Below are positions 2,296 to 8,952 of a stretch of 8,952 nt of DNA, in pieces. The stretch is from Candidatus Heimdallarchaeota archaeon (GTDB taxonomy: Archaea; Asgardarchaeota; Heimdallarchaeia; Heimdallarchaeales; Kariarchaeaceae), in contig WAMJ01000185.1 in NCBI GenBank assembly GCA_015522385.1, forward strand, positions 1-8,952, read 5' to 3'. Every line of letters begins with the position of its first letter. Position 1 is the first letter of the stretch. The notes beneath the pieces are model-generated. The model did no database searches, was not told the origin of the DNA, and saw only the letters and a program-made list of their open reading frames with translations. Position numbers and translations under genes: made by a program.

Positions 2296-2326
2296 GTGTT
2301 ACACTAGCTACAATATGAGTTCTAGT
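2296..2326. promoter_or_regulatory. Possible operator palindromes at the 2315 start
   Basis: GTGT-T-ACAC (2296-2304) is a perfect short palindrome between the TATA box and the ATG. ACTAG (2303-2307) and CTAGT (2322-2326) form inverted arms 19 bp apart around the start codon. A protein bound here would cover the predicted transcription start. Because the first gene of the unit is a winged-helix protein, autoregulation is a reasonable inference. Short palindromes arise by chance, so confidence is low. Confidence 0.25.
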
Positions 2327-2689
2327 ATTGCTAATATCTCAGAATTCGATGAAGAGCAGATTAGTGAATTGTTTGACGTAACTGAACTATCATCCTATTC
2401 AGACGGGGAAATTCAGAAAGTACCCGAGAATGGAGAGGTGGAATTCAGAACGGAAAAAATCATGAGTTTTCAGGTTGAGACAGTACGGGAAGTCACGATC
2501 AATTTGGACAACATCACTTCGAAGTTTTTCAAAGAACGGACAAGAGAAGATGTGAAATCAGAAATATTCGATATTATCCAAACATCTCCTGGGATAAGTA
2601 CCTCGGATATAATCGATGAAATCGATTATGACCTGTGGACAATTCTAGAGATATTGGATGAGTTGATGGAAGAGGGTAAGGTGGAATAG
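2315..2689 (+). CDS. Small winged-helix DNA-binding protein
   Basis: The protein has 124 aa. The frame can be extended to a TTG at 2267, but ATG 2315 lies about 28 nt from the TATA box and removes an unlikely cysteine-rich N-terminus. The first 75 or so residues are acidic and of unknown fold. The C-terminal 50 or so residues (REDVKSEIFDIIQTSPGIST, then SDIIDEIDYDLWTILEILDELMEEGKVE) have the spacing of a winged helix-turn-helix: helix 1, a short turn with GIST, a SDI helix, a recognition helix and a LxxLxxEGKV wing start. That pattern is known from MarR/ArsR-type and archaeal HTH proteins. Inferred role: transcription regulator of its own unit or of viral genes. It ends in TAG, which overlaps the next start by 1 nt. 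It is AT-rich compared with the rightward operon. Confidence 0.65.
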   Translation: MSSSIANISEFDEEQISELFDVTELSSYSDGEIQKVPENGEVEFRTEKIMSFQVETVREVTINLDNITSKFFKERTREDVKSEIFDIIQTSPGISTSDIIDEIDYDLWTILEILDELMEEGKVE

Positions 2690-2889
2690 TGGTAGATATT
2701 ACAAATAGTCTGAAAGCCGGTGACCGTTTCAAGTTCGAGAAGATAGTGGTTTCCGCAAGAAAAATCCAAAAACCGAGAACAACATCTGGATCTGGAAGGC
2801 ATCGTACAATGCAAACAATTTGTGAACGTGATGGACTCATATTCGTGGATAAGACATGGAAATCTAAAGGAGGAAAGAACAATGACTGA
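2689..2889 (+). CDS. Hypothetical 66-aa basic protein
   Basis: GTG start at 2689 overlaps the upstream TAG by 1 nt, and the 3' end overlaps the next ATG by 8 nt, so it fits the unit's tight packing. The sequence KAGDRFKFEKIVVSARKIQK followed by a Ser/Gly-rich linker and TICERDGLIFVDKTWK suggests small beta strands on either side of a basic linker. I recognise no family. A nucleic-acid-binding role is only suggested by its basic charge and neighbours. The start is preceded by a weak purine-rich stretch (GAAGAGGGTAAGG), so translation may be coupled to the upstream gene. Confidence 0.55.
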   Translation: MVDITNSLKAGDRFKFEKIVVSARKIQKPRTTSGSGRHRTMQTICERDGLIFVDKTWKSKGGKNND

Positions 2890-3349
2890 TATAAATATAG
2901 ATATAAAGGAAGACTTGGACTTCGAAGTTAAGAAGTTTGAGTTCAATCGTTATAAATTAAAAGACGGTACTGTTTTGAGGTTGGTATGTGTACCGGTAAA
3001 AATAATGAAAACCGAGAAATATGATAATAGGGGGATCCCTCAATACGTTGTACAGTCCCAATCTATACTCTCTGCAGTTGTTGACGACGCTCTGAGAGGA
3101 CCTTCGGAAATCTTCAATCCGTTAGAACAAATAAGTCCAGAGGACTTGGAACCTATCGATTTTGATCCAATCATCGAACCTTGGAACGAATATGAGTTAT
3201 CAGATGGAGTGATACTTAAATTTCGAACTTCTGTGACTCAGGTAGATCGGTATAAGGGCCGAAACCAATTCGGAGAGCCAGTGTATTTTGTTAAAGAGAA
3301 CAAATCGCTGAACACACGCGCTTCCAAACATCTGAGGAAGAGAAGATAG
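2882..3349 (+). CDS. Hypothetical 155-aa protein made of a duplicated 43-residue unit
   Basis: ATG 2882 is chosen over the upstream in-frame ATG at 2822 because AAAGGAGG (2869-2876) is well spaced before it. Residues 21-63 and 101-143 align without gaps, with 11 identities of 43. Shared positions include NxYxLxDGxxL near the start and GxPxYxV near the end. Each unit looks like a small beta-strand domain, YxLxDGxxLxxxxxV then GxPxYxV. Between them is an acidic linker rich in E, P, D and I (residues 65-100), and the C-terminus is basic (KHLRKRR). I do not recognise the family. The repeat suggests a two-site binding protein or intramolecular dimer. It ends in TAG, 13 bp from the end of the convergent gene. 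The gene is AT-rich, with many ATA, AAA and GAT codons. Confidence 0.65.
   Translation: MTDINIDIKEDLDFEVKKFEFNRYKLKDGTVLRLVCVPVKIMKTEKYDNRGIPQYVVQSQSILSAVVDDALRGPSEIFNPLEQISPEDLEPIDFDPIIEPWNEYELSDGVILKFRTSVTQVDRYKGRNQFGEPVYFVKENKSLNTRASKHLRKRR
2942..3310 (+). repeat. Internal protein duplication (2942-3070 and 3182-3310)
   Basis: The two 129-nt segments code for units that align end to end with no gap. Identical positions are N2, Y4, L6, D8, G9, L12, G31, P33, Y35, V37 and L43 of the unit, and many others are conservative (V/I, R/K, F/W). The nucleotide sequences have diverged, so the duplication is old. Confidence 0.6.
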
Positions 3350-3362: not shown

Positions 3363-4238
3363 CTAAATCTTCCTCTCGTAGCTACACCGGCAGTACCCGT
3401 GACCATCATTCGTGCAGTTGGGATTCGGAAGCACGGGAACGTCCGTCTTGGAGAACTCCCGGCCCCGTAATTTCCTGCACTGGTCACACGCACTACCCGC
3501 CACGCCGATGACCACCGTGGATCCAGCGGGGAACCGCTCCAGCTCCAGGCGGTTGTACACACGGTTAGCTGCATCGAAGGCGACCGCCAAGTTCTCTCCC
3601 AGGTCCTTCACTATCCCGAGATTGTAGTCAATGACCTCCCTCTGAATCCCGCCCTCGAGCTCGGGCACGATGGAGGCCCACGCCAGCTCGTAGTTCCCGC
3701 ATTTCCAACTGTACTTGGGCGAGATACCACCGTCCATTCCCATACTCATCCCCACTCCCCTAACAGGATAGGGGATCTGCTCGTTCATGAACTTGGTCAA
3801 TGCAGCCTTCGCACCCACGGGATTCTCACGCACCCGCTCGCATACCTTGACGTACTCCTCCCTCAGCTCATCCAGCCTCTCCTCCAGCCCCGTCCTGATC
3901 GTGTGCGTCACGATGTACCTGGGCTCGGCAGTGCGGTGTATCTCCTCCCATTCGTTGTCGTCGAGGCTCGGGACCAGCCGCTCAATCAGGTCCGCCTTCT
4001 TACCCGACCTCTTCAGCCCCTTCTTGTGTATCCACGGGCGGATGAATGACGCCTTCTGGTAGGTCAGGAGTGCAGGCCCCCGGAGTGGGACGATGTCCCC
4101 TCTCCGCAACCGATCTCCGAAGTACGAGCTGTAGTCGGTCCCGAGGTAACTCTCCCATAATCTCTGGGACGATGGCGGATGGGCGTAGGGAATCTGCGTG
4201 AACCTCAGGAAGAACCAGAGCTCGTCACTGACGATCAC
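3363..4238 (-). CDS. SAP-domain protein with MuF-like cysteine C-terminus
   Basis: The frame opens at an ATG at 4292, but that start lies inside the upstream RHH gene. GTG 4238 directly follows that gene's stop and has a GGTGAG Shine-Dalgarno, giving 291 aa, so I prefer it. Residues about 60-92 hold a SAP-like motif: a hydrophobic helix (FIRPWIHKKGL), then SGKKADLIERL. SAP domains usually bind DNA. The middle is helical and charged. The C-terminus has CDQCRKLRG (C251, C254), then C275, H280 and CRC (C283, C285). This follows the C-x2-C...LxG+xF...LP...NC...CRC pattern of phage Mu gpF / SPP1 gp7-type minor head proteins. Inferred: a capsid-associated or DNA-associated viral protein. The odd points are its minus orientation and its pairing with a regulator. 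An accessory effector with a MuF-like module is the alternative. Confidence 0.6.
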   Translation of the reverse strand: MIVSDELWFFLRFTQIPYAHPPSSQRLWESYLGTDYSSYFGDRLRRGDIVPLRGPALLTYQKASFIRPWIHKKGLKRSGKKADLIERLVPSLDDNEWEEIHRTAEPRYIVTHTIRTGLEERLDELREEYVKVCERVRENPVGAKAALTKFMNEQIPYPVRGVGMSMGMDGGISPKYSWKCGNYELAWASIVPELEGGIQREVIDYNLGIVKDLGENLAVAFDAANRVYNRLELERFPAGSTVVIGVAGSACDQCRKLRGREFSKTDVPVLPNPNCTNDGHGYCRCSYERKI

Positions 4239-4239
4239 C

Positions 4240-4419
4240 TCAGGCCTCACCTTCAGGTTTAAAGAAGTCCATATTCTTTGATCGAAGTGCATTGTAAACC
4301 TGTTTTATGCAGAACTTCAGAGCTTCACTTTTATATGATGTATTGAGCCAAGACATGATAAATTCCAACATTTCTCCAGTTTCGTTGTCGATATCTGTCC
4401 GCAGTTGAATCTTTGACAT
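4240..4419 (-). CDS. 59-aa ribbon-helix-helix-type regulator
   Basis: This short ORF reads from ATG 4419 to TGA 4240. The protein begins MSKIQLRTDIDNETGEMLEF and continues IMSWLNTSYKSEALKFCIKQ, followed by VYNALRSKNMDFFKPEGEA. The layout fits the MetJ/Arc/CopG ribbon-helix-helix fold: a short basic strand (KIQLRTDI) for DNA contact, a first helix (ETGEMLEFIMSWL), a turn with TSYKSEAL (similar to the usual S/T-x-S-E-A/L motif) and a second helix (KFCIKQVYNAL). Such proteins bind tandem operators as dimers. It is the first gene of the minus-strand unit, one nucleotide before the GTG of the SAP gene, and it faces abrB across the GTAC array. I infer a viral repressor, possibly autoregulated. It is AT-rich, unlike the SAP gene after it. 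Confidence 0.62.
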   Translation of the reverse strand: MSKIQLRTDIDNETGEMLEFIMSWLNTSYKSEALKFCIKQVYNALRSKNMDFFKPEGEA

Positions 4420-4444
4420 ACATTGATATGACAGTACGCGAATA

Positions 4445-4454
4445 ACAATATTAA
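4445..4454 (-). promoter_or_regulatory. Weak TATA-like element for the RHH/SAP unit
   Basis: On the minus strand TTAATATTGT is about 26-35 nt before ATG 4419, a position that would give a leaderless or nearly leaderless transcript. It lies between GTAC cores at 4434 and 4456, so a bound repressor would block it. Another AT-rich element (minus-strand ATATAAAA, 4328-4336) lies inside the RHH gene and could serve an internal start, but it is less convincing. Confidence 0.35.
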
Positions 4455-4494
4455 CGTACTCTCAATAACACTTGCGTACTGTTAGTACGTAAAC

Positions 4495-4504
4495 TTTATA
4501 TATG
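4495..4504 (+). promoter_or_regulatory. TATA box of the abrB-led operon
   Basis: TTTATATATG has its centre about 29 nt before ATG 4528, which fits a leaderless transcript. There is no Shine-Dalgarno before 4528. GTAC palindromes flank the box on both sides (4475-4489 and 4511-4527), so occupancy would control the whole rightward operon. Confidence 0.65.
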
Positions 4505-4527
4505 TCGCAGAGTACGTATTATGTACT

Positions 4528-4674
4528 ATGAGTACGTCAGAGTACACATTCGTGGCTGAGATTATCTCTGCAAATCGAATCACAATCCCGAAAAACATCA
4601 GGAAACTGATGAATACGCACAAAGGACACCTTGTGCGAGTTACCATCAAACCAATCAAGGAGGTCTCCTCATGA
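4528..4674 (+). CDS. AbrB/MazE-type swapped-hairpin DNA-binding protein
   Basis: The protein has 48 aa and starts MSTSEYTFVAEIISANRITI, followed by PKNIRKLMNTHKGHLVRVTI and KPIKEVSS. The F-V-A-x-I...NRITIPKxIRKLM...KGHLVRVxI pattern matches the SpoVT/AbrB domain almost exactly: a strand, then R-I-T-I-P leading to a short helix, G, then a V-x-V-x-I strand. Proteins of this fold dimerise through swapped hairpins and bind DNA, as transition-state regulators or antitoxins. No toxin-like gene follows, so a regulator is more likely than an antitoxin. It is the first gene of the 13-gene rightward operon and has a leaderless start. Its stop overlaps the next start (ATGA), and the next gene's AAGGAGGT (4657-4664) lies within its coding sequence. 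Confidence 0.78.
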   Translation: MSTSEYTFVAEIISANRITIPKNIRKLMNTHKGHLVRVTIKPIKEVSS

Positions 4675-4802
4675 ATCTCGTCGATCTGACTGGTTATGAT
4701 ATTTGCACCTGCTGCGGACTCCGGGGCAAACAGCCCCACGGGTACTGCATGAACTGCGACATCCACGGGGACTGCCCCAACTGCAGGGAGGGGGAGGCAT
4801 GA
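4671..4802 (+). CDS. 43-aa zinc-binding microprotein
   Basis: The ATG at 4671 overlaps the abrB stop (ATGA) and follows a perfect AAGGAGGT at 6-nt spacing. Seven cysteines are visible: C12, C14 and C15 (ICTCCG), C26-x2-C29 (YCMNC) and C35-x2-C38 (CPNC), with H23 and H32. This is enough for one or two zinc sites. No known family is recognised. Its role is unknown; protein-protein or nucleic-acid contact is typical of such small zinc modules. The end overlaps the next ATG by 4 nt. Confidence 0.65.
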   Translation: MNLVDLTGYDICTCCGLRGKQPHGYCMNCDIHGDCPNCREGEA

Positions 4803-5083
4803 TCATCGGGCAGCACTCCAATGTCATTCACAAGCCTACCGTCCGTGCACGAGCACTCAAGGCTATCGCCCTCATGCGGGAGGCCTCTGGTATTATCAAG
4901 TCACTCTACAACGACGCCCTCGAGACCAGCGACATGGTGGCGGACGCACTGATGGACATCACACTGCCCGGCTTCAATGAGCCTGACTTCGACGAGGAGA
5001 ACGAGCGGGAGATCTCCTATGTGACCGAAGTACTGGCGGAGATCCGAGAGCTCGAGGACGAAGACGAGGAGGACTCGGAATGA
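4799..5083 (+). CDS. Hypothetical 94-aa helical acidic protein
   Basis: ATG 4799 overlaps the upstream stop (ATGA) and follows a GGGAGGGGGAGG purine run. An in-frame ATG at 4703 lies inside the zinc microprotein gene and is rejected as the start. Residues about 14-55 look helical (RARALKAIALMREASGIIKS, then LYNDALETSDMVADALMDIT). The C-terminus is strongly acidic (ELEDEDEEDSE). There are no cysteines. No family is recognised. The acidic tail could mimic nucleic acid or bind basic proteins, but this is speculation. Confidence 0.6.
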   Translation: MIIGQHSNVIHKPTVRARALKAIALMREASGIIKSLYNDALETSDMVADALMDITLPGFNEPDFDEENEREISYVTEVLAEIRELEDEDEEDSE

Positions 5084-5241
5084 ACGAAACGCCGCTCTCC
5101 TGCCCGATCCAAGACGCTGCCATGGTCGAGTGCGACGGCTGCGGATTCGTCGATGCGTGCCACCGCTACACCAGCACCGACGAGTGGCTGTGCTACTCCT
5201 GTGTCCAGAAGGCCGTGGCGGTGTGGAGGTCATGCCAATGA
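5080..5241 (+). CDS. 53-aa zinc-ribbon microprotein
   Basis: The start is ATG 5080 (ATGA overlap) after GAGGAGGA. The zinc ribbon is C18-x2-C21 (VECDGCGFVDAC) and C38-x2-C41 (WLCYSC), separated by 16 residues. C8, C27 and C52 are extra. The CxxCG...CxxC spacing is that of short zinc ribbons found in transcription factors and small viral proteins. Function is unknown. Its 3' end carries GGAGGT as the ribosome-binding site of the next gene and overlaps it by 4 nt. Confidence 0.62.
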   Translation: MNETPLSCPIQDAAMVECDGCGFVDACHRYTSTDEWLCYSCVQKAVAVWRSCQ

Positions 5242-5606
5242 AGTTGAAGATCCACTACGGCTACTTCATAGAGCACAATAGGTGCAGATCGGATTACCGA
5301 CCCCACAGGCACATCTACGGCTGCCACTATGTGTGGGGGACTATGACCAAAGATCTCTCGAAGGTCACCTGCAAGGTCGGGATGAAATATCAGAAACTGG
5401 ATTATCGAGGAATGCTGCTTCGGGACGCCCCCATACCATACGAGAAGAGTTTTGACCAGAGGCAATGGGAACGTATAGACTTCCACGATCTTTGGGAGCA
5501 GGCTGCTGAGACGTACCGAGACCCGGATCTCTTCATCAAGGGGATAGGCACTGAGCCACTGAGACTGAACAGATTCTCCTGGGTCAGGAGGAGGTCCAAG
5601 GCATGA
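5238..5606 (+). CDS. Hypothetical 122-aa basic protein
   Basis: Two in-frame ATGs exist, 5232 and 5238. I prefer 5238 because GGAGGT (5225-5230) is 7 nt away from it, against 1 nt for 5232, and because it gives the ATGA overlap used elsewhere in the operon. The N-terminal part is rich in H, C and Y (HNRCRSDYRPHRHIYGCHY) and could bind metal. The middle reads as strands (TCKVGMKYQKLDYRGMLL). A helical FDQRQWERIDFHDLWEQAAE segment follows, and the C-terminus is basic (RFSWVRRRSKA). No family is recognised. It sits directly before the TFB gene and overlaps it by 4 nt. Confidence 0.6.
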   Translation: MKLKIHYGYFIEHNRCRSDYRPHRHIYGCHYVWGTMTKDLSKVTCKVGMKYQKLDYRGMLLRDAPIPYEKSFDQRQWERIDFHDLWEQAAETYRDPDLFIKGIGTEPLRLNRFSWVRRRSKA

Positions 5607-6607
5607 CGCTGCTTGTCCACGACGTCTGCTCCAACTGCGGTAACCAATCCGTGGTTCCCGACGGTGAGGAGGTATGTGCCAAATGCGGGACCATCCTCGG
5701 CCCACTGTACGAATACTCATCGCACGCCATGGTCGAGGGCTCCTACGAGGGACCGACACAGTACACCAGTGTTGGAAAAAGAATCAACGTGGTAGGCGAG
5801 CTCGGCTCCGAGATCGGGCTGTTCAGATCCACATTAGTGGGGATCCGATACAGGATAACCGAGGAGGCGGCCGAAAAGTTCAACCGCCTGAACTACATCC
5901 ACCACAGGCAGGCCAAGACCGCTTCGGTCCAGACGCACCTGAGAACTTTTTCCATCTTCAACCGGGTCGCCTCGCAGCTCCAGCTGACGAACTCGCTGAG
6001 GAACCGGACGGCACACCTCTACTGGAAGTACGACAGTGAGCACCGGATAACCAACCACGTGCTGCTCATTGCTATGTGTCTTCTGTATGCTGTCAGGGAG
6101 AGTGGATCACCGCTCAAGTTCCAGGAGATAATTGCAGCATTCGAGTCGCACCGGGTGATCCCCCGTGCCATCAACAAGCTGGCCAGGGACCTCGGCGTGA
6201 ACTTCGCCCGCTTGGGGGTTAGGAAGCCCGAGGACTACGTGGGACGGATCGCAGAGCAGGTCTCAAACCACGAAGCAGTGAAACTGGACGACTACGGGAT
6301 GAGCCGTGGTACCTACCAGGCCCTCTTGACGAAGATAAGCGAGTATTTCCTGTCAACCATTGGACGAAGAGAGAGGGGAGGAGTACAACCCCATGGCTAT
6401 GCGGTGGCGGTCGTGTACCTGGCCGATCGGGGTATCGCTCGGTATTTCAGGCGAGTGCCGGTCCTCACACAGCCACTGGTAGCGGAGATCACCGGGGCTC
6501 GAGAGTACACGATAAGGGATCATGTTTCCATGACCCTGAACTGGAAAACGTGGGTGAGGGGCCGAATCATGCCGTATGTTAAGCAGATTATGGAGGGGAG
6601 CAGCTGA
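5603..6607 (+). CDS. tfb: Virus-encoded transcription initiation factor B (TFB)
   Basis: The protein has 334 aa, slightly longer than the usual 300 or so. The N-terminal zinc ribbon is C9-x2-C12 (CSNCGN) and C25-x2-C28 (VCAKCGTILG), the classical TFB/TFIIB ribbon that docks on RNA polymerase. A B-reader/linker region follows (about residues 35-80). Two cyclin-like repeats then fill about 85-180 and 190-300. Typical patterns are HRITNHVLLIAMCLLYAVRE, LKFQEIIAAF...RAINKLARDLG, RKPEDYVGRIA, and AVAVVYLADRG in repeat 2. TFB binds TBP-TATA and the BRE and recruits the polymerase. A viral copy could steer transcription to viral promoters. The reader region lacks the usual D/E-x-G-x-E-W-R-A-F stretch. 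The start ATGA overlaps the gene before; GGAGGAGGT precedes it. Confidence 0.85.
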   Translation: MTLLVHDVCSNCGNQSVVPDGEEVCAKCGTILGPLYEYSSHAMVEGSYEGPTQYTSVGKRINVVGELGSEIGLFRSTLVGIRYRITEEAAEKFNRLNYIHHRQAKTASVQTHLRTFSIFNRVASQLQLTNSLRNRTAHLYWKYDSEHRITNHVLLIAMCLLYAVRESGSPLKFQEIIAAFESHRVIPRAINKLARDLGVNFARLGVRKPEDYVGRIAEQVSNHEAVKLDDYGMSRGTYQALLTKISEYFLSTIGRRERGGVQPHGYAVAVVYLADRGIARYFRRVPVLTQPLVAEITGAREYTIRDHVSMTLNWKTWVRGRIMPYVKQIMEGSS

Positions 6608-6960
6608 TGTGTGACCAGTGCGAGAACGAGGTCTCGCTCATGGGGGCGGCCAAGAGTGTAACCTTCACCAGCAACGGGTACAGGCTGAAGCTCTTCAACG
6701 GGAAGGAGCACACCGTCTCACTGCCGAATAGTTCCATACATGGACTTTGGAAATACTGCGACATATGGGCAGAGAACCTGAGTGCTTTGGTTGATCGTCG
6801 ATGCACGGCGTCGATATACCTGTACTGCGAGGAGTGTCACGGGGACAACGGGATCGCCCGATGCGGCAGCTTGGTGCACTCAACCCGCGAACATCGCCTC
6901 AAGGGCAGGAAGTCAGCCCTGAGTGGGGTCTGCGAGTACTGCGAGGAGGACTCAGAGTGA
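6607..6960 (+). CDS. Hypothetical 117-aa multi-cysteine zinc-binding protein
   Basis: ATG 6607 follows the TFB stop in a TGATG junction (1-nt overlap), after GGAGGGGAG. Nine cysteines are visible: C2-x2-C5 (MCDQC) at the extreme N-terminus, C51, C66, C74-x2-C77 (YCEECH), C86 and C109-x2-C112 (VCEYC), with H78, H91 and H96. At least two zinc sites are likely. The stretch between, VTFTSNGYRLKLFNGKEHTV, looks like beta strands. No family is recognised. Its position directly after TFB suggests a transcription-related role, but this is only context. Confidence 0.6.
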   Translation: MCDQCENEVSLMGAAKSVTFTSNGYRLKLFNGKEHTVSLPNSSIHGLWKYCDIWAENLSALVDRRCTASIYLYCEECHGDNGIARCGSLVHSTREHRLKGRKSALSGVCEYCEEDSE

Positions 6961-7568
6961 TCGAGCAGTTCGAGGGTGTGGATGTTGAGATCCACCATGT
7001 TGAATCCGAGCATGTCATCACTCTTACCGACGTGTCAAAAGCCTTGGGTGTCAACAAACAGGCCATACACAATATTCTACGACGATATAAGGATGAGTTT
7101 ACGGAGGAGGATACAAAGGGGGTAACAATTTGTGACCCCCTTGGAAAGAACAAACAAAGAAACCGTGTATTCACCAAATCCGGTATCATCCAGCTCTGCT
7201 TCTTCGTGAAGTCCCCGAAAGCAGCAGCCTTCCGCAAGTGGGCGAAGAAGACCCTCACCAAGATCATGGACGGCACGTACGAGGTCATCGAGTCCTCGAC
7301 CAAGCAGAAAGTGGACGTACTGGCAGATCTCATGGTCGATCTCGCCTATGCAAATCACCTCGAGGCAGCGGAGCGAATCCGGGTCAAGTTCGGGGAGGAG
7401 CTACCACCACCGCCGACACGTAAAGAGTTCGCAGCTGCGATCCAGAAGGAGGGGTATGACTTCGGGCTCAAGTGGTACAACACACTACGCACAGCTCCGA
7501 GGTCCAAGATCCCCCTGCTGATCGCCCCCGGTGTGGGTCCAACAAAGCCCAGGAGGAGGAAGAAATGA
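6957..7568 (+). CDS. Bro-N/phage antirepressor-type DNA-binding protein
   Basis: The start is GTG 6957 (GTGA overlap with the upstream stop) after GCGAGGAGG; an in-frame ATG at 6801 lies inside the previous gene and is rejected. The protein has 203 aa. Residues about 3-108 follow the Bro-N pattern: FEGVDVEIHHVE, then HVITLTDVSKALGVNKQ (the conserved LTxxDVxxALGV helix), then RRYKDEF, RNRVFTKSGIIQLCF and KAAAFRKWAKKTLTKIMDG. Bro-N domains occur in phage antirepressors and baculovirus BRO proteins and bind DNA. Residues about 110-175 are helical (KVDVLADLMVDLAYANHLEA), and the C-terminus is basic (TKPRRRKK). The likely role is a viral regulator or antirepressor acting on the operon or switch. 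The exact partner is unknown. Confidence 0.75.
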   Translation: MIEQFEGVDVEIHHVESEHVITLTDVSKALGVNKQAIHNILRRYKDEFTEEDTKGVTICDPLGKNKQRNRVFTKSGIIQLCFFVKSPKAAAFRKWAKKTLTKIMDGTYEVIESSTKQKVDVLADLMVDLAYANHLEAAERIRVKFGEELPPPPTRKEFAAAIQKEGYDFGLKWYNTLRTAPRSKIPLLIAPGVGPTKPRRRKK

Positions 7569-7768
7569 CCCGGCTGAACCGCTGGACGGGAATCAAGAAA
7601 ATTCGGTCCAGCTCCCGGGGGAGATCCATCGGGCACGGGGTGGAGCAGTGCCCCGAGTGCAAGAGCAAGAACACAAGAGTACACTGGCAGGGCGACCTGT
7701 TCTGCAAGAACTGCGGAGTGGAGACCCCAGCCGAGAAACTATCATCCAATATGGAGGAAACAAAATGA
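7565..7768 (+). CDS. 67-aa zinc-ribbon protein, TFB/TFIIS-like ribbon
   Basis: ATG 7565 (ATGA overlap) follows AGGAGGAAG. A basic N-terminus (RLNRWTGIKKIRSSSRGRS) is followed by a clean zinc ribbon: C29-x2-C32 (CPECKSKNTRVHW), 14 residues, then C47-x2-C50 (LFCKNCGVE). The ribbon resembles the polymerase-docking ribbons of TFB or transposase ribbons, but there is no cyclin domain. Role unknown; it could compete for a polymerase or nucleic-acid surface. The 3' end overlaps the next start by 4 nt. Confidence 0.65.
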   Translation: MTRLNRWTGIKKIRSSSRGRSIGHGVEQCPECKSKNTRVHWQGDLFCKNCGVETPAEKLSSNMEETK

Positions 7769-7959
7769 GTGAAACAACAACCGAACCCGCCCAACCCGAG
7801 ATGGAACACATCACGGTACTGGGACGAATCTACGACCACTGCGGATACTGCAGCCCGTGCAAATCAGTCCACCGCTGCGTCCGCTGCCACACGCTCACCT
7901 GCATCAAGTGCAGAAACCACGAGGGGAAGTGCCCCCGGTGCTCAAGGAGGAGACGCTGA
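7765..7959 (+). CDS. 64-aa cysteine-rich zinc finger-like protein
   Basis: ATG 7765 (ATGA overlap) follows GGAGGAAAC. After a Pro/Thr-rich start (SETTTEPAQPE) there are nine cysteines in 34 residues: HCGYCSPC (C26, C29, C32), RCVRC (C38, C41), CIKC (C46, C49) and CPRC (C56, C59), plus H25, H37, H42 and H52. The protein ends in SRRRR. The ladder of CxxC pairs suggests two interleaved zinc sites, similar in style to RING or B-box fingers, though I cannot assign a family. The basic end suggests nucleic-acid or acidic-protein contact. Confidence 0.65.
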   Translation: MSETTTEPAQPEMEHITVLGRIYDHCGYCSPCKSVHRCVRCHTLTCIKCRNHEGKCPRCSRRRR

Positions 7960-8207
7960 TGGAGATCATCATCTCTCTATCCGTCAAAGACAGGGACGAG
8001 AAGCTCTCGTTCAGTATGAGGATGAGCGACGACTACGAGTCGAAGAAGTACGTACCCGTCAATGACTGGCTTCCTGAGATCTTGAAGAGGATGAAGGACT
8101 GGCTGGTCAAGGTGGACAAGGAATACGATCTGGAGCTCAACCAGACCACCCTCGACGAGGCATTCAGAACGCTCGTTAGGGACACGCTTGAGGAGGCAGA
8201 GTCATGA
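7959..8207 (+). CDS. Hypothetical 82-aa protein
   Basis: ATG 7959 follows a TGATG junction after AGGAGGAGA; an in-frame ATG at 7857 lies inside the preceding gene and is rejected. The N-terminus reads as strands (MEIIISLSVKDRDEKLSFSM). A charged helical segment (WLPEILKRMKDWLVKVDKEY) and a final helix (LDEAFRTLVRDTLEEAES) follow. No cysteines and no recognised family. It overlaps the next gene by 4 nt. Confidence 0.6.
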   Translation: MEIIISLSVKDRDEKLSFSMRMSDDYESKKYVPVNDWLPEILKRMKDWLVKVDKEYDLELNQTTLDEAFRTLVRDTLEEAES

Positions 8208-8599
8208 ACGAGCTGGAGAACATGACCGCCGAGGAACTACAGTACGTCCTCGAGCAGGCGAAAGCGACCGCAAAGGTCGGGATTCAGAAGTACTCCCCCA
8301 TCGCCCGGAGTATCGCAGAGAGGCTCGGGAAGGAGCTCGGCACGAGGTACGGAAGAAAGTACTTCTACGACGACGGGATAGTCCGCATCTACTACGACAC
8401 CCACGGGAACTACGTCTCAGTCGGCTACAGCGGCGTCACGGTGCTCAGCGACCACCCCTGCCCCGAGATCTACCGGGCGGGGTACTGGATGCAGCACCTC
8501 GAGGGACTGCACGAAACACTGGAATCGAAAGACCAAGAGAAGAAGAAGGAGCTGCTGGACAAGCTCAGGAACTATCTCCCACTGGAGGAGGGCTACTGA
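8204..8599 (+). CDS. Hypothetical 131-aa protein
   Basis: ATG 8204 (ATGA overlap) follows GAGGAGGCAGAG. A helical N-terminus (residues 1-45) is followed by a strand-rich centre (RYGRKYFYDDGIVRIYYDTH, then GNYVSVGYSGVTVLSDHPCP) and a charged coiled-coil-like C-terminus (LESKDQEKKKELLDKLRNYL). The DGIVRIYYDTHGNYVSVGYSG motif resembles short hypothetical proteins seen in virus genomes, but I cannot name a family. The stop forms a TGATG junction with the next gene. Confidence 0.6.
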   Translation: MNELENMTAEELQYVLEQAKATAKVGIQKYSPIARSIAERLGKELGTRYGRKYFYDDGIVRIYYDTHGNYVSVGYSGVTVLSDHPCPEIYRAGYWMQHLEGLHETLESKDQEKKKELLDKLRNYLPLEEGY

Positions 8600-8952
8600 T
8601 GAGCCTGCTCGACATTTTCTCATACCTTCAGCTCTTGGAGCAGTCCCTTGAGAACGAGCAGAAGATCGGGTGCTGCGAGAAGGAGGTCCGTGAATCCGTG
8701 CAGAAATGGAAGACCATCCGCTCCGGTGCCATCTGCCCTGGGTGCGGAGAGTGGACCAGTATACTTCGAGATCAGAACGAGCAGATCTGCGACGTCTGCG
8801 GGTTCGTCTTCAAGCTCCGCCCCGAGGACGGTCGTGTGGCATTTGTTACCATGCTTGAGAGCTGGGAGTTCGTGGGTCTACTCCGTGCCAAGGTGAGATT
8901 CGTGGACGATAAAGAGGGGTATGTCGTCTCCACCTCTGGCACGGTGCACATC
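8599..8952 (+). CDS. Zinc-ribbon protein, 3' end missing
   Basis: The ATG at 8599 overlaps the previous stop (TGATG) after GGAGGAGGG, and the frame stays open for 118 codons to the window end. The N-terminus is helical (SLLDIFSYLQLLEQSLENEQ) with C25 and C26. A zinc ribbon follows: C46-x2-C49 (ICPGCGEWTSI), 14 residues, then C64-x2-C67 (ICDVCGFVF). The CPxCGxxxxxxx...CxxCGxV spacing and sequence are close to TFB/TFIIB-type ribbons. The remaining part (ESWEFVGLLRAKVRFVDDKE) looks strand-rich. No cyclin fold is visible yet. It could be another transcription-related ribbon protein. Function unknown. Confidence 0.6.
   Translation, partial: MSLLDIFSYLQLLEQSLENEQKIGCCEKEVRESVQKWKTIRSGAICPGCGEWTSILRDQNEQICDVCGFVFKLRPEDGRVAFVTMLESWEFVGLLRAKVRFVDDKEGYVVSTSGTVHI

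Follow-up and report, generated by a model that had tools for sequence, protein, structure and literature searches.

The stretch of DNA that we analyzed (hereafter "the window") comprises 8,952 nucleotides of a Heimdallarchaeota contig. Near its middle, two small divergent genes, one RHH-like and one AbrB-like, are separated by an AT-rich gap (GC 0.33, 4420–4527), which is occupied and slightly overrun by an array of short boxes with a GTAC core. The features are as follows:

3363–4292, minus strand: protein with a SAP motif (E 0.00097, below cut-off), whose gene overlaps the end of the RHH gene
4240–4419, minus strand: 59-aa RHH-like protein, heading the leftward unit (relative in genome G005, 42 and 44%; family profile versus RHH_1)
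4433–4549, no strand: array of eight AGTACRYNW half-sites (GTAC core positions and word counts)
4447–4454, minus strand: probable TATA box of the RHH gene, TTAATATT, starting 35 bases before the ATG
4475–4489, no strand: perfect inverted repeat CGTACT-GTT-AGTACG, CGTACTGTTAGTACG, directly upstream of the abrB TATA box
4495–4502, plus strand: TATA box of abrB, TTTATATA, starting 33 bases before the ATG
4522–4536, no strand: second inverted repeat TGTACT-ATG-AGTACG, TGTACTATGAGTACG, with one mismatch, around the abrB start codon
4528–4674, plus strand: 48-aa AbrB/swapped-hairpin-like protein, heading the rightward operon (TIGR01439; 40% over 40 aa to the protein at locus L089/L097)
4671–8952, plus strand: 12 further ORFs, including zinc-finger-like, TFB (5603–6607), Bro-N (6957–7568), and others, the last truncated at the window end

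The 59-aa protein is classed as RHH-like on the strength of a distant profile match. It has no sequence match of its own in Pfam, NCBIfam, or the PDB (best PHROG E 0.067), and searches of these three collections with the window protein or its family returned no RHH protein, save for one family member at E 0.067. A profile of the 12-member Asgard family aligned by hhalign with the Pfam RHH_1 proteins of the same genomes over 48 colinear columns spanning the strand, helix 1, and helix 2 (probability 85.6, E 5.6e-6), in a comparison to which 8 of 19 loci chosen by a motif pattern contributed a protein. In the structural model of the 59-aa protein, which is of low overall confidence (mean pLDDT 64), helices are predicted where an RHH protein would have them, at residues 12–28 and 32–47, and the strand is unformed in the monomer; Foldseek gave no significant match for either this model or that of the AbrB protein. 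Relatives of the RHH protein occur in 9 of 227 Asgard genomes, the best being in G005. The next gene of the leftward unit encodes the SAP-motif protein, whose true start is possibly, we infer, the GTG at 4238. One of 58 genomes of the class has a relative of it (42%, locus L077 on G001:C6), with no such gap or array beside the gene. The C-terminal part of the SAP protein has a CxxC...CRC pattern, which we take to be reminiscent of Mu-F-type head proteins.

The 48-aa AbrB-like protein matches TIGR01439 at E 3.5e-6 (26.6 bits against a cut-off of 28.3) and Pfam MazE_antitoxin, below cut-off, at E 0.012. It is the first of 13 ORFs that run to the end of the window, each overlapping its predecessor by 1 or 4 bases, overlaps that depend on manually selected starts. 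The Bro-N gene among them is antirepressor-like; a search of INPHARED with it matched seven records, all of bacterial phages. The TFB gene (5603–6607) is closest to a TFB paralogue of Heimdallarchaeia, such that a mobile element appears to carry a host-type initiation factor. All eight confirmed loci with TFB relatives (38–53%) are on archaeal MAGs (six Heimdallarchaeota, one Kariarchaeota, and one "archaeon"). At E 1e-40 or better, a relative is found in 42 of the 58 class genomes, in single copy in 38 of these 42, with other, weaker TFB matches in seven genomes. At two loci (L001 and L003), the relative is flanked by housekeeping genes, whose names were assigned by reading.

Since relatives of the TFB, the SAP protein, the RHH protein, and a small module of the window sit in Heimdallarchaeia genomes, the element is placed by sequence in this Asgard class. 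The module is a set of three genes at 2315–3349, encoding a winged-helix-like protein and proteins of 60 and 150 aa. All three genes are present in G005, and 13 of the 227 Asgard genomes have a relative of the third, the best match again being in G005. The module recurs at locus L128 and on contigs G003:C4 and G056:C31, and the third gene is found alone on G003:C7. We considered the module as a viral marker and rejected it, as all three genes lie amid host-looking genes on G003:C4 and G056:C31. The Bro-N gene and the compact operon suggest that the element is probably a virus or provirus. No capsid, portal, or terminase was recognized among the window proteins scanned, a set that left out several small ORFs, and no RNA family reached its gathering threshold. 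At 1216–2169, the window encodes a protein that looks secreted: it has a signal-like stretch at the N-terminus and, at the C-terminus, a hydrophobic stretch and then RKKR, similar to archaeal surface-sorting tails. The SAP and TFB proteins of the window were found in two contigs (the longest of 33,577 bp), and AbrB in one (21,104 bp); the abrB of the second SAP/TFB contig may be different or missing.

A prior reading, made from the window sequence without any database search (the sequence-only reading), had proposed eight GTAC cores, mostly as AGTACG/CGTACT, between the divergent RHH and AbrB genes. The eight cores are indeed there, at 4434, 4456, 4476, 4485, 4512, 4523, 4532, and 4542 (thus spanning 4434–4545), with successive spacings of 22, 20, 9, 27, 11, 9, and 10 bp. 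Six of the eight sites read AGTACG/CGTACT, and the remaining two AGTACA/TGTACT. However, the density of GTAC is by itself a weak argument, because the word is common throughout the window, with 70 occurrences against the 26.7 expected from dinucleotide shuffles. Coding sequence holds 63 of them, versus 48.7 in synonymous shuffles (5 of 1,000 shuffles reach 63), with 41 of the 63 in the phase that gives Tyr TAC codons. Even so, the cluster exceeds chance: eight GTAC sites within 112 bp were obtained in 24 of 20,000 random placements of the 70 sites, and shuffling the local 131 bp with its dinucleotides preserved gave eight in 8 of 20,000 cases. Read in one orientation, all eight sites of the array fit the word AGTACRYNW, compared with 5 of the other 62 GTAC sites in the window (Fisher 1.4e-7, which is optimistic, as the word was derived from the array itself), and the window as a whole has 13 occurrences of this word versus 1.3 expected. 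The array also extends into the first codons of abrB, as had been pointed out, but the overlap is weak evidence given the codon usage of the window, where 34 of the 211 Ser codons are AGT, and where Glu and Tyr are more often encoded by GAG and TAC than by the alternative codon.

The two palindromes that had been described as bracketing the abrB TATA box are both real, that at 4475–4489 being perfect and that at 4522–4536 having one mismatch, although perfect repeats of this 6-3-6 form are not rare as such (seven in the window, one of them inside the array). The TATA boxes start so close to their start codons, at the distances listed above, that both the abrB and the RHH mRNAs are probably near-leaderless. 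For each of the two promoters, boxes are located directly upstream of the TATA box and between it and the start codon. Within the range of 6–29 bp, the window has GTAC spacings of 9 bp (two), 10 bp, and 11 bp in the array and nowhere else.

Support for the arrangement came from a related element. The best match to the RHH protein among the 227 Asgard genomes is on a contig of 6,427 bp (G005:C48, locus L089/L097), where two tandem repeats, 42 and 44%, form one fused RHH-RHH protein of 122 aa. Facing it across 128 bp is a gene for a 137-aa AbrB-like protein, with 40% over 40 aa to the AbrB of the window. Sequence comparison thus indicates that the divergent RHH/AbrB pair is conserved, in one homologous pair. 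The gap at L097 contains TGTAGT-N3-ACTACA twice, where the window gap has CGTACT-N3-AGTACG. The contig has three perfect 6-3-6 inverted repeats, and the two in the gap are both TGTAGT-N3-ACTACA. Shuffling the gap 20,000 times gave the same arm twice in 3 cases and at least two 6-3-6 repeats in 203; among the 665,765 bases of the other loci fetched, there was one instance of the same arm twice within 60 bp (L062). The L097 gap also provides a test of the window word on sequence from which that word was not derived. In the 134-bp gap region, there are six matches with at most one mismatch versus 0.83 expected from the contig density, and the best other 134-bp stretch of the contig has four; shuffles of the AT-rich gap reached six in 113 of 5,000 cases. 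One TGTAGT-N3-ACTACA lies directly upstream of the abrB TATA box, and the abrB promoters of the window and L097 have in common TTTATATATG, an inverted repeat directly upstream, and TACGTA between the TATA box and the ATG. Hence, the expectation that relatives would keep such an array beside an RHH/AbrB pair was borne out by one related element; the pair and the geometry of the sites are kept, but the GTAC word is not, as the operator word differs. A search with AbrB of the 58 class genomes gave one other match, adjoining a PIN-like ORF, and an alignment search of the 227 Asgard genomes gave matches in 16 (the G005 pair and 15 weaker ones), with no second divergent pair recognized among loci where a motif filter located the AbrB ORF in 4 of 18 and full ORF lists covered L157 and L049.

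A second element, at locus L128 (G005:C256), is related through the three-gene module. It has two facing small genes of 51 and 53 aa, one of whose products matches the RHH family clearly (E 7e-10) and the other weakly (E 0.31; RHH_1 E 0.067). The gap between them and the first codons hold eight TGCA boxes against 1.0 expected, with no 6-3-6 repeat in the gap and no AbrB gene beside the facing pair. An eight-box array without an adjacent AbrB favors RHH proteins as the readers of such arrays. At RHH strand residues 5, 7, and 9, the window protein and both L097 repeats have Q, R, and D, where the word is STAC, whereas both L128 proteins have A, T, and R, and the word differs (TGCA). Three elements are too few to establish a code that links residues and word.

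To place these arrays among their relatives, one and the same test was applied to the 134-bp upstream regions of 12 genes of the RHH family (117 bp for L092 and 44 bp for L152), with a background that is mostly coding and with no correction for many words. Apart from the three elements already described, L091, L096, and L130 also have strongly over-represented upstream words together with 6-3-6 repeats, the repeated words in L091 and L096 consisting of A and T only; L129 was weak, and L090, L092, L131, and L152 (44 bp) showed little. Repeated upstream words may be a frequent trait of this family of RHH genes; alternatively, the signal may in part reflect AT-rich intergenic DNA set against a coding background. 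An array alone, therefore, does not single out a switch, and a partition function stays a rival. The short RHH relatives L129, L130, and L131 have no facing AbrB gene. At L129 (G012:C70, 4115–4837), an AbrB-like 65-aa ORF lies ~340 bp beyond the RHH gene on the opposite strand, with no common gap.

Taking these observations together, we consider it reasonably likely that 4433–4549 is the autoregulatory operator array of a Heimdallarchaeia mobile element, in which RHH dimers would occupy the boxes and repress both promoters. The dimers would bind the AGTACRYNW boxes, cooperatively where these are spaced by 9–11 bp, and the bound boxes would adjoin the BRE and TATA box and surround the start site of each near-leaderless promoter. 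Binding would repress the RHH gene, and with it the leftward RHH/SAP unit, as well as the abrB promoter, which heads a rightward operon of at least 13 genes that includes TFB and Bro-N. AbrB, a product of the operon that it heads, would be a second regulator and would probably act on the same gap. There is a bacterial precedent for such binding in CopG of plasmid pMV158, whose RHH dimers bind four-base palindromic boxes 9 bp apart (TGCA-N5-TGCA). The window has GTAC-N5-GTAC, and L128 uses TGCA, as does CopG; however, the CopG site is a single 13-bp element on a bacterial plasmid, with no known divergent partner gene. The sequence-only reading thus stands in three respects, namely the divergent pair, an array that spans both promoters, and a relative that keeps the pair with a matching array, and is refined by the tie to Heimdallarchaeia and by a word that varies while the geometry is kept. 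Binding by RHH or AbrB, repression, and the outcome of any switching we infer from this arrangement.

The same reading had gone further and drawn a parallel to lambda CI and Cro, with the two regulators competing or cooperating to select either the leftward RHH/SAP unit or the rightward TFB operon. A bistable choice of this kind, with overlapping boxes bound by both proteins in opposite order of preference, goes beyond our preferred explanation while being compatible with it, and we regard it as rather unlikely. In lambda, two HTH proteins act at operators between divergent promoters, and both the two specificities and the developmental switch are proven. The window likewise has divergent regulator promoters with candidate operators between them, for which two specificities and a developmental switch are proposals. 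The conservation of the divergent pair and the antirepressor-like Bro-N gene in the operon are in keeping with such a choice, as is the helical phase of the boxes: the left four and the right four are each coherent (R 0.86 and 0.89), their faces lie somewhat under half a helical turn apart, and none of 729 random sets was equally coherent in both halves, for a 4+4 split that was picked after the sites had been seen. However, all eight boxes have one word in common, so two specificities are not indicated.

Alternatively, the main reader of the array might be AbrB, which, like C68 of the Sulfolobus plasmid-virus pSSVx, would repress its own operon from an inverted repeat at the BRE while RHH acts elsewhere. 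The inverted repeat directly upstream of the abrB TATA box in both the window and L097 would suit such a role. Against it, boxes flank the RHH promoter too, palindromes of four bases at 9-bp intervals are typical of CopG, and at L128 an array of eight boxes lies between two RHH-like genes. The parallel with pSSVx is nevertheless the closest known case. The AbrB-like C68 binds the gap to the divergent orf60, which encodes a CopG homologue, and its best, high-affinity site is over the BRE of its own promoter, the other being midway between the promoters (PMC5569661). The window and L097 are alike in this, given the fold assignments: a gene of the AbrB fold and an RHH gene diverge from a common gap. 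C68, however, has two sites with a different consensus, and its gene stands alone opposite the other eight (PMC5569661), whereas the window has eight boxes over both promoters and an abrB that heads a long operon. With up to two mismatches, the two spellings of the C68 recognition word occur six and five times in the window and in neither case in the array; the C68 structure (3o27) is absent from the eight PDB matches of the window AbrB, and no sequence relation between the two was found. We think it improbable that AbrB is the main reader.

A third possibility is that the array is a centromere or a replication iteron, and RHH a partition protein. RHH proteins of 174–200 aa at L090, L091, L092, L096, and on G003:C4 (L152/L153) precede or are close to ParA/MinD-like ATPase genes, possibly as a chromosomal segregation pair in Heimdallarchaeia, and the upstream regions of L091 and L096 have repeated A/T words, as described above. 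In addition, L097 carries a gene that, by reading, encodes a ParB-like protein of 784 aa, and both GC and AT skew rise across the array of the window (GC skew from −0.14 at 3751–4250 to +0.03 at 4751–5250). Yet a change of gene direction would give the same skew change as an origin, no ParA was recognized within the 8.9 kb, and the boxes are at the promoter positions of both genes, all of which make this explanation decidedly unlikely. Finally, a chance cluster of a word that is frequent in this genome (70 sites in the window) is very improbable in view of the placement, shuffle, and AGTACRYNW statistics of the array and the matching layout at L097.

We also searched more widely for relatives and arrays. 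IMG/VR gave no relatives with single queries of AbrB, RHH, TFB, and SAP or with the A1, A2, and A5 alignments, INPHARED gave no match for these four proteins, and in a protein search AbrB and SAP matched themselves only. Eight IMG/VR stretches that fitted a GTAC-array pattern were taken as chance, as all eight lie inside an ORF of at least 138 aa, with no RHH/AbrB pair seen. In the 58 class genomes, GTAC triplets were found at 47 places in 27 genomes, compared with 179 places for the reversed control pattern. One dense cluster, L055 (in L175), was present among the 27 loci fetched for these triplets, and it is the only place in 665,765 control bases with at least six word matches (at most one mismatch) per 134 bp, having eight. 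We did not take it as support, because it has no RHH or AbrB match and one exact AGTACRYNW. It is a GTAC-rich intergenic stretch (L175, G024:C78, 6325–6490) on a compact virus-like contig of another Heimdallarchaeia genome, and is possibly an origin or another operator.

The general plan is thus already known, both from the pSSVx pair and from F55 of SSV1, an RHH lysogeny regulator that acts on tandem sites, regulates itself, and has been likened to CI (PMC5569661). The same source describes archaeal viral RHH proteins that polymerize over BRE/TATA. Like the RHH protein that we propose to act on the window array, F55 is a small viral RHH protein with tandem short sites over BRE and start sites; unlike it, F55 acts on four promoters, and the account of F55 names no AbrB partner (PMC5569661). 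The F55 word ATAGATAG does not occur in the array, even when one mismatch is allowed. Heimdallarchaeal viruses have been published (HeimV1 and HeimV2), and the terms "transcription factor" and "AbrB" are absent from the main text (PMC8813620). Judged by titles and the openings of abstracts, in a literature that included few subscription papers, no paper listed describes an operator switch of RHH and AbrB in a virus or plasmid of Asgard archaea. What is new here is an eight-box array over both promoters, a word that has changed while the geometry is kept, a TFB/Bro-N operon, and the Asgard setting.

On a broader view, which we offer tentatively and consider doubtful, there may be a family of compact switches in mobile elements of Asgard archaea (Heimdallarchaeia), each combining a facing pair of small DNA-binding proteins with some eight boxes that cover the two promoters. 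The box word (AGTACR, ACTACR, or TGCA) would co-evolve with the RHH strand residues while the placement at the promoters is kept, and in viruses the switch would decide between dormancy and a TFB/antirepressor early operon. If the switch is real, it would be a small and testable one in the archaea most closely related to eukaryotes, and its natural variants would show protein and DNA word differing in parallel. Moreover, as the operon that it would control includes a TFB closely similar to a paralogue in 42 of the 58 Heimdallarchaeia genomes, the switch may also govern the redirection of host transcription.
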